A DNA stretch of 64,000 nucleotides, taken from contig NZ_NFJF01000006.1 in NCBI RefSeq assembly GCF_002159735.1, positions 62,001 through 126,000 of the forward strand. Direction: 5' to 3'. Under the pieces are notes generated by a model. The model did not search any database, was not told where the DNA came from, and worked only from the letters and a program-made list of their open reading frames with translations. The position numbers were made by a program, and so were the translations under genes. Origin of the DNA: Olsenella sp. An270 (GTDB taxonomy: Bacteria; Actinomycetota; Coriobacteriia; Coriobacteriales; Atopobiaceae). Positions 24,767-61,910 of this stretch are shown here, piece after piece (position 1 is the first letter of the stretch; each line of letters starts with the position of its first letter).

Positions 24767-25086
24767 CAGCGTCGAGCGACCGGCGCGAAGAATCTGCCTC
24801 CAAACCCGACTTCTGAACAGTCCCGCCCCATCCGAGGACGATTTATCAAACACTGAATCTAATCCACCTGCGGAAACGACACCGAAGGCGGGTCGGCCGA
24901 GCGAACGACCCCAGAAAACTGTTCAGAAGTCGGTTTCGAAGGCAGGTTGCTCCGAAAGTGCCCGCGAAGAGCGCAGTTTTATCGAGTCGGCACGCCTGCG
25001 CCCGGAACCCGTCGCGTGCACGCCGCGTTTGCCGTAGAATGGAAGACGCTATGGTCATGACCCCGAAACACCGGAGGTAGCAGCGC
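24767..25086. other. Gap between ecfT and purL with repeat element A and the purL leader
   Basis: No gene is seen in these 320 bases. They contain inverted-repeat element A copy 1 (24794-24945 with an outer flank to 24963) and, nearer purL, a TAGAAT at 25035-25040 that may be the -10. GGAGG at 25073-25077 serves purL. No purine riboswitch is recognisable. Confidence 0.7.
24794..24945. repeat. Inverted-repeat element A, copy 1 (152 bp)
   Basis: Terminal arms 24794-24820 and 24919-24945 are 27 bp and match at 24 positions (CTGCC..., CCGACTTCTGAACAG against CTGTTCAGAAGTCGG). The interior is 98 bp and unrelated to the interiors of copies at 52197 and 61758. An outer flank CTCCGAAAGTGCCC (to 24963) follows the right arm, as in copy 2. 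Confidence 0.85.
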
Positions 25087-31218: not shown

Positions 31219-31346
31219 CATTGTCTGGGTACTTTTTTCCGCACCACGGAAGTATTCGATCGACTGGGCGCCATATTTCTGCAGGTAGAAAAATGGTACA
31301 GACGAGACCGTACTTCACCACCTCTCAAAAAAGTACCCAGACAATG
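31219..31346. repeat. Inverted-repeat element B (128 bp)
   Basis: Perfect 20-bp ends CATTGTCTGGGTACTTTTTT (31219-31238) and its complement (31327-31346) enclose 88 bp. It fills the convergent gap between the serpin gene and the zinc-ribbon gene. The poly-T/poly-A at the inner edges could serve as a terminator in both directions. Confidence 0.8.
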
Positions 31347-46245: not shown

Positions 46246-46356
46246 CGAGTGTACGAGTTTGCGCCCACCGGCCACTGCTCGGGCGAGAAGAACGACCCGT
46301 TTGCCCAGTTGGCGTTATTCTCAGCCCTAGCCCGGCATCCCTAACTCGTACACTCG
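46246..46356. repeat. Inverted-repeat element C (111 bp)
   Basis: CGAGTGTACGAGTT (46246-46259) and its exact complement (46343-46356) enclose 83 bp. Its plan is similar to elements A and B, but the end sequences are unrelated. Confidence 0.7.
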
Positions 46357-52196: not shown

Positions 52197-52348
52197 CTGC
52201 CTTCAAAGCCGACTTGTGAACAGGTTTGGAATTCGGGCACGCAGCAGAGCGCCTGACGCCCGGCGTTTTCGCAGGATTCACGAGCACACCGGGGCGACAT
52301 GCGACATGTCCGAACAGAAAACTGTTCACAAGTCGGCTTTGAAGGCAG
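52197..52348. repeat. Inverted-repeat element A, copy 2 (152 bp)
   Basis: Arms 52197-52223 and 52322-52348 are perfect 27-bp complements (CTGCCTTCAAAGCC..., CTGTTCACAAGTCGG). The 98-bp interior is unrelated to those of copies 1 and 3 apart from AGAAAA before the right arm. The outer flank TCTCGAAAGTGCCC (to 52366) matches copy 1. The whole nadE-glnQ gap (52115-52387) holds no gene. Confidence 0.88.
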
Positions 52349-56838: not shown

Positions 56839-56850
56839 GTCGCCGTGGGG

Positions 56851-56940
56851 CGGCCGGGCGATAAGAACCCGGCGCTCGGACAGTCCTCGCCGCAAAGGGC
56901 GCGGCTGCGGAACTCGCGGCGGGTTCTTATCGCCCGGCCG
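56851..56940. repeat. Inverted-repeat element F with motif-like ends (90 bp)
   Basis: Perfect 21-bp arms 56851-56871 and 56920-56940 (CGGCCGGGCGATAAGAACCC plus G, and its complement) enclose 48 bp. Each arm contains GGCGATAAGAACC, one base from the recurrent GGCGAGAAGAACC. It lies between convergent cyuA and ogt and is probably a two-way terminator. Confidence 0.8.
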
Positions 56941-56973
56941 CGATGCGCCCATCGGCGCCTTGGAGCCGAGGGA

Positions 56974-61757: not shown

Positions 61758-61910
61758 CTGCCTTCCACGCCGACTTCTGAATAGATTTCTATTCAGAGGG
61801 ACGCTCAGGCAAAGTTTGGCCCCGCAAAAGACCAGATAAAGTTGGCGCGCATTCCGCCGTTCAGGGTAACGCGCGTCAAAAACTATTCAGAAGTCGGCAT
61901 AGAAGGCAGA
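61758..61910. repeat. Inverted-repeat element A, copy 3 (153 bp)
   Basis: Arms 61758-61784 and 61884-61910 are 27 bp and complementary at 25. GAATAG/CTATTC replaces GAACAG/CTGTTC of the other copies on both sides. The interior is 99 bp. The outer flank is on the left here: GGGCACTTTTG (61740-61750), inverted relative to copies 1 and 2. Confidence 0.85.

Follow-up and report, generated by a model that had tools for sequence, protein, structure and literature searches.

Fixed-length intergenic palindromes of Coriobacteriales, many of them probably recognised by their own Vsr-like nuclease-like proteins

We analysed a window of 64,000 bp, contig C11:62001-126000 of genome G000 (2.01 Mb in total), in which three solo palindromes of one family (family 1) were found, each consisting of two facing 27-bp arms around a central core, with the third copy lying between fur and tsaE. 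The window also contains one palindrome each of families 2 and 5, as well as a Corio-PBP RNA (Rfam). This RNA points to the Coriobacteriales or a nearby lineage, and the named proteins nearest to the NadE of G000, in a search that may omit very near records, come from Olsenella (76%, and 79% over part of the protein). The elements are located as follows, in window coordinates.

24794..24945, + strand: family-1 solo palindrome, copy 1, core on the + strand
24794..24820, + strand: left arm of copy 1
24863..24878, + strand: central core of copy 1, TCCACCTGCGGAAACG
24919..24945, - strand: right arm of copy 1
31219..31346, - strand: palindrome of family 2, which belongs to the same class, with arms CATTGTCTGGGTACTTTTTT, AAGTA at 31250-31254, core at 31274-31289 and TACTT at 31311-31315
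46246..46356, - strand: family-5 palindrome, arms CGAGTGTACGAGTT, with a core-like sequence at 46298-46313, about 4-5 bp off centre
52197..52348, - strand: family-1 solo palindrome, copy 2, core on the - strand
52197..52223, + strand: left arm of copy 2
52264..52279, - strand: central core of copy 2, GAATCCTGCGAAAACG (a looser core scan chose another place in this copy)
52322..52348, - strand: right arm of copy 2
61758..61909, - strand: family-1 solo palindrome, copy 3, core on the - strand, between fur and tsaE
61758..61784, + strand: left arm of copy 3
61825..61840, - strand: central core of copy 3, TTTATCTGGTCTTTTG
61883..61909, - strand: right arm of copy 3

The original prediction had described three copies with facing 27-bp arms and mirror-image arm changes (TGT/ACA and AATAG/CTATT), both of which we confirmed. 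The interior lengths it gave (98, 98 and 99 bp) are correct for copies 1 and 2; copy 3 ends at 61909 and not at 61910, so the interior is 98 bp in all three window copies. Its statement that the interiors share no similarity did not survive once orientation was left free: family-1 copies occur in both orientations, and orienting them brought out at their centre, at a fixed place, a core (approximately ACCTGCGG) that was missing from the earlier comparison, scoring 11.2 bits against a shuffle null with a mean of 4.7 and a maximum of 5.4 (12 shuffles). This core (ACCT|GCGG) is asymmetric and lies at the dyad; in family 1 the arms and core are conserved and the remaining interior has diverged at constant length. 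The core ACCTGCGGTT seems to resemble the 3' strand of 16S rRNA helix 45, probably by chance. The outer flank GGGCACTTTYG is present as had been described, but is only weakly common to the 14 genomic copies of the family.

Across G000, family 1 comprises 14 arm pairs spaced by 98 bp (n = 7) or 99 bp (n = 7), 13 of them with both arms found by an arm search allowing at most 2 mismatches and the last (L007), whose right arm has decayed, placed by alignment. The measured distance that had been proposed is supported inside each family that we inspected closely, with a spacing of 98/99 bp in 14/14 family-1 copies. Other two-mismatch arm matches in this genome had no partner arm, and the unpaired matches whose DNA was inspected (L025, L029 and L030) look like chance, as do reversed-pattern controls. 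A weaker test, a whole-window shuffle scoring single arms at up to 3 mismatches, gave 7 matches compared with 1.86 expected, a number reached in 1 of 100 shuffles.

The window copies belong to a large population of fixed-length palindromic repeats in Coriobacteria, apparently undescribed so far; searches of the open-access PubMed Central literature showed no account of these repeats or of their gene link. Family 2 was present in 10 of 31 genomes of the genus, its copies being paired exactly, 102-104 bp apart from start to start (the exceptions being one inside-out pair and some unpaired copies) and an interior of 88-90 bp in 38 aligned copies, orthologues included. RAGTA and TACTY stand about 12 bp inward of its arms, with the core between them in most copies; a clear RAGTA was not evident by eye in family 1. 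A model built on family 2 (R2: arm, about 12 bp, RAGTA, central core, TACTY, about 12 bp, arm) matched at least 49 of 149 genomes of the order, in at least 12 of 77 genera and three bacterial families, the counts being lower bounds because the filters were strict and no more than 23 candidates per genome were scored. At 17 loci from other genera the arms differ from those of the window. The position of the core was measured at 15 of these loci (2 were skipped) and deviates from the centre by no more than 1 bp at 14 of them, one of these 14 cores matching at 5/8 positions. Four genomes sampled further (20 copies) each reuse one or two arm sets, with a loop of 81-95 bp in 18 copies and a called arm that ran inward in the other two. 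A fixed spacing was also seen in a family of G041 (interior 97-99 bp in 13/13) and in family a of G096, whose 10 facing pairs are 104-105 bp apart and which has in addition one inside-out pair and one unpaired copy. Short-loop families (27-46 bp) are without the full plan, and arms differ widely from family to family. Inside-out copies, with the arms pointing outward around the core, were seen at L243:18085-18162 (G000), L303 (G006) and L389 (G096); those in G000 and G006 adjoin a Ser/Thr kinase gene. The core is not confined to one family: when three genomes of the genus (864 kb of sequence) were scanned with a matrix built from family 1 alone, 12 of the 88 inverted repeats outside family 1 carried it at the dyad compared with 1 of 528 off-centre windows, some of the 12 being related copies. 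Control DNA, 537 kb and mostly clostridial, contained 7 palindromes, none of which had the core. Both the architecture and the fixed length are direct observations.

Two family-2 loci with orthologues in 5 and 4 species, respectively, are 81-98% identical to the left of the core and 38-67% to the right, with almost constant total length; three further loci compared in several species show 86-100% identity on both sides of the core, so the notion of a free spacer is not valid everywhere. Among family-2 copies, 11 pairs are similar (at least 0.7) to the left of the core and below 0.5 to the right, and the reverse pattern did not occur. We considered half-swapping by recombination at the core and rejected it: many of the similar pairs are orthologous loci, so unequal constraint accounts for much of the asymmetry. 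This does not account for a left-half lineage, marked by a short inverted repeat of its own, that was found at two different loci with unrelated right halves (L274 and L314 versus L244, L273, L284, L296 and L308). An element that captures DNA, as had been suggested, is not supported, since core and RAGTA are kept across copies and orthologous copies have common interiors.

Occupied and empty sites were compared at the fur-tsaE gap in 26 of 29 sister loci, leaving out G020, G041 and G043, in which both sides were not found nearby. The gap is nearly empty in G024 and G045, and in other sisters it holds different palindromes, some with the same core. No clean insertion event was caught. One group of sisters carries paired arm changes in this gap (AACGCGCAC/GTGCGCGTT, AACACGCAC/GTGCGTGTT and AACACTCAC/GTGAGTGTT), with a one-sided state in G015. 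Elsewhere, the G004 orthologue of one family-1 copy (L034) has lost its interior. Around one family-1 copy (locus L009, G000 C8:52255-55268), about 2-3 kb are 96-99% identical in five other species, suggesting a possible recent transfer; identity at three other loci in other species was 83-86%, 94% and 96%. A phage-borne or attP site was also considered and rejected: in viral contigs, neither the pattern of family 2 nor the g31 genus arms had any match, and the family-1 pattern had 2 AT-rich matches with different spacing, which we took as chance.

The palindromes are associated with genes for an uncharacterised protein family of about 310-400 aa. The starting gene, in G096, is enclosed by two same-arm palindromes, and its protein weakly matches the Vsr-fold domain REase_MTES_1575 (PF18741; 26.8 bits, below the curated cutoff of 38.2). 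PF18741 was matched by 4 of 15 members at E ≤ 0.05, even the best of them (6e-6) staying under the curated cutoff, and the weak profile match falls in the C-terminal part of the proteins. Residues S177, P178, E180, D225, E236 and H243 are invariant in 15/15 members and form a putative active site. Pfam gave no transposase match for the gene bracketed by arms, PDB sequences no match to partner proteins, and NCBIfam (9 proteins) and PHROGs (15) no match. Viral contigs yielded no match to two partner proteins, and phages none to one; a single partial plasmid match was obtained, from Collinsella aerofaciens, with 44.5% across one third of the query. The family profile (alignment A5) detected the family in 123 of 149 genomes of the order, including 49/49 R2-positive genomes compared with 74/100 others (P = 1e-5; lists compared by eye). 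An MTES_1575-type Vsr-like domain has been described in a HEPN-fused protein in a paper on conflict systems (PMC3710099), whose account of the domain mentions no link to dispersed palindromes.

In a first set of partner genes (30 loci from 49 match rows in six genomes), an inverted repeat lay within 160 bp of the stop codon in 21/30, compared with 92/606 predicted genes (P = 1e-10), and 9/30 had no downstream inverted repeat. A second set with one locus per genome gave 28 usable loci, 3 of them already in the first set; among the 25 new genes, 13 had a downstream repeat (P = 3e-5), 17 an upstream repeat (background 78/582) and 23 at least one flanking repeat (background 158/582). Same-arm palindromes on both sides were recognised by eye at 15/55 partner genes, and bracketing by a shared 9-mer at 14/55 compared with 1/582 predicted genes (P = 3e-15). 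Gene-adjacent arms shared a 10-mer with a solo palindrome of their own genome in 15/32 cases, compared with 22/1024 across genomes (P = 2e-15), and in 12/29 compared with 22/928 (P = 2e-11) without three genes whose arms had been picked by eye; for 17/32 genes no own-genome match was present among the sampled solos. Gene-palindrome adjacency and the match between gene arms and solo arms within a genome are directly observed, and many arm families seem, from these matches, to belong to a nuclease-like gene of their own. The following solo families of G000 were matched to genes in this way.

C7:212930-214099: partner gene of family 5, bracketed by the same arms
C3:9837: partner gene of family 3, repeats read by eye
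C9:44363: partner gene of family 9, repeats read by eye, one stop inside the wider match
C7:369658: partner gene of family 8, same-arm palindrome on both sides
C1:336024: partner gene of family 6, same-arm palindrome on both sides
C1:484699: partner gene of family 4

A family-1 copy sits 67 bp after partner-gene homology at about C1:429335-430347 of G000, and as this homology runs in two reading frames, the family-1 gene appears frame-broken. For family 2, a partner gene was identified in G024 and, from coordinates, in G014; within G000 it was tied to none of the partner genes, and neither was family 7. Two partner genes, L406 in G000 and L407 in G006, are 60% identical with similar upstream DNA, and their flanks differ in the arms on both sides, GAGTGTACGAGTT in G000 and GAGTGTACGAAA in G006, the solos of each genome carrying their own genome's version. 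Because several protein-arm pairs lie side by side in G000, the co-evolution of DNA recognition is directly testable.

Taken together, we consider it likely that these are families of REPIN-like palindromes, many and perhaps all of them recognised by their own Vsr-like nuclease-like protein. The window copies would be solo members of one such family of DNA palindromes. Each palindrome would present two facing binding blocks at a fixed distance around the central core, a block comprising, for family 2 and those families that follow its model, the arm and the RAGTA about 12 bp inward. Many arm families, and perhaps all, would be recognised by their own Vsr-like (PD-(D/E)XK-type) nuclease-like protein, whose gene would lie outside the window and often be flanked by the same palindrome. 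The protein may bind both arms of the double-stranded palindrome and cut or nick at the core, after which repair or copying from another copy would spread and maintain the palindromes, with protein and arms presumably co-evolving; nuclease activity and mobility we infer. A wider formulation, to which we give an even chance, is a two-component selfish or domesticated element of a new class, in which a Vsr-like PD-(D/E)XK family, often with several members per genome, maintains, through each member, its own centre-marked, length-measured palindromes, both arms giving specificity and the action taking place at the dyad core, as an independent non-HUH counterpart of REPIN-RAYT across an order of Actinomycetota.

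Several other explanations were weighed against this one. A structured RNA with a long closing stem, one of three ideas in the original prediction, would explain why the arms often change on both sides together. Arms agree more closely within a copy than between copies (1 of 2000 permutations as high in family 1, and 0 of 2000 for 22 distinct copies of family 2). When 21 copies of family 2 were aligned with 2 related copies that have other arms, the arm cells comprised 32 double changes, some of them contributed by these two rows, 3 one-sided G-U and 13 mismatches. The scarcity of G-U intermediates in this alignment argues against an RNA, however, as do the less clean family-1 arms, which contain several one-sided states and vary independently on each side at position 25, and the exact length, which is hard to explain for a loop. 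Covariation is strong but ends with the arms: self-pairing of the interior was absent in families 1 and 2 (P = 0.77 and 0.92), and in RNA folding of single copies the arms paired and no common interior fold was seen. At gathering score, Rfam matched known RNAs in the window and none on an element; in 12 further loci it returned one tRNA and otherwise sub-threshold matches to eukaryotic miRNA/snoRNA families. Since the arms match and the interior is unpaired, an RNA hairpin fits less well than phased double-stranded DNA, and the arms are better explained, judging from these patterns, as two copies of one double-stranded-DNA recognition site; the RNA reading is very unlikely. A protein-bridged DNA loop fits best of the three earlier ideas, the binding by a protein being what we infer. 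Ordinary MITEs of a DDE transposon, with the arms as terminal inverted repeats and a drifting interior, would agree with the inverted arms, the dispersed intergenic copies and a near-identical pair in G001. Against them, arms and core are conserved in family 1 while the other interior has diverged at constant length, target-site duplications in families 1 and 2 were no more frequent than in shuffled pairs, and the gene bracketed by arms is nuclease-like and without a transposase match in Pfam, which makes this origin very unlikely. The earlier argument that a simple MITE would keep its interior was soundly reasoned; even so, what is seen remains a non-coding repeat in dispersed copies whose partner gene lies elsewhere.

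Host regulatory or chromosome-organising sites, in which a degenerate-nuclease regulator would use the palindromes as operators, some of them autoregulatory, are rather unlikely in our judgement. Intergenic placement, inside-out copies adjoining other genes, retention of copies at orthologous loci and a partner gene apparently at the same place in two species all speak for them. Yet no promoter bias was found: 39 copies fell into 12 convergent, 10 divergent and 17 tandem gaps, compared with 61, 96 and 151 of 308 background gaps between genes predicted with a simple script, and no significant difference was obtained for convergent or for divergent gaps. Moreover, the invariance of SPxE, D, E and H points to a retained active site, and the fur-tsaE site holds different palindromes in different species. 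The same placements led us to reject a terminator or 3'-end element, many copies closely following a stop codon and yet 10/39 lying in divergent gaps. A defence or addiction unit, whose nuclease would attack DNA and whose palindromes would serve as decoys or self-marks, would be in keeping with the HEPN fusion mentioned above, but PADLOC returned one weak match among 9 proteins (12.3 bits, E 0.018), and we regard it as very unlikely indeed, slightly more so than MITEs.

The REPIN-like reading preferred here places the palindromes as a REPIN-like variant and not as a member of REPIN-RAYT. The RIP/RIB composite elements of E. coli also consist of facing repeats around a central protein site, which there is an IHF site, with unrelated sequence, and we know of no cognate nuclease gene for them. 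Correia-type MITEs, at about 150 bp with terminal inverted repeats of about 26 bp, are similar to family 1 in size and arm length, but their interior is conserved; to our knowledge, they have no cognate Vsr-like gene. REPINs, as described in PMC3116915, are dispersed intergenic inverted pairs with spacing peaks of 71 and 110 bp, ends better conserved than the spacer, compensated changes and a linked dedicated transposase gene. The Coriobacteriales palindromes are alike in that short conserved ends form an inverted pair at a nearly constant distance and in a cognate gene tied to the same repeats, though the enzyme differs; they are unlike in the conserved asymmetric core at the dyad, in the absence of a whole-unit hairpin (arms match and the interior is unpaired in families 1 and 2) and in arms that vary widely between families. 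Membership in REPIN-RAYT was rejected since the partner is not a Y1/HUH enzyme: PF01797 (Y1), present in 28/31 genomes of the genus, is absent from the carriers G000, G019 and G041. The GTAG- and CGTC-tagged REPs, described in PMC3733652, are small palindromes, some of them paired with spacers alike in length and not in sequence, as is the case here, and according to that paper the CGTC repeats have no transposase-gene association. Our elements differ from these in their size, mostly 73-185 bp compared with 20-40 bp, and in the tag: on reading, the arms of families 1 and 2 have neither GTAG, the tag at the REP foot, nor CGTC, although some RAGTA(G) motifs contain GTAG.

The analysis connects a nearly unannotated protein family with many palindromes between Coriobacteriales genes that had gone unexplained, and the fixed spacing around a dyad core presents a clear structural puzzle. 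Should activity be demonstrated, "independent class" would be the better term, and HUH enzymes would not be required for REPIN-like life cycles.

Further repeats were observed in the course of this work. A second class has a conserved loop of 36-40 nt (GAGTTCCGCAGCCGCGCCCT..GGCGAGGACTGTCCGA) in long arms that seem unique to each locus (window 56850-56941; L227:8798 and 17258; L234:7832, 7971 and 16837; L235:3499; L233:6663). Near-perfect hairpins with tiny loops, built on GACAAAGGNGAC..., recur in the genus (L235:16796, L240:13758, L242:12936 and the fur-tsaE gap of G012, G013 and G044). The short motif GGCGAGAAGRAC(CTC), sometimes in tandem, is found in many intergenic flanks of the genus, among them fur-tsaE gaps and the flanks of partner genes, and long inverted repeats built on GACAAGGGCGGCGATT-like sequence were seen at L226, L233:14204 and L235:150.
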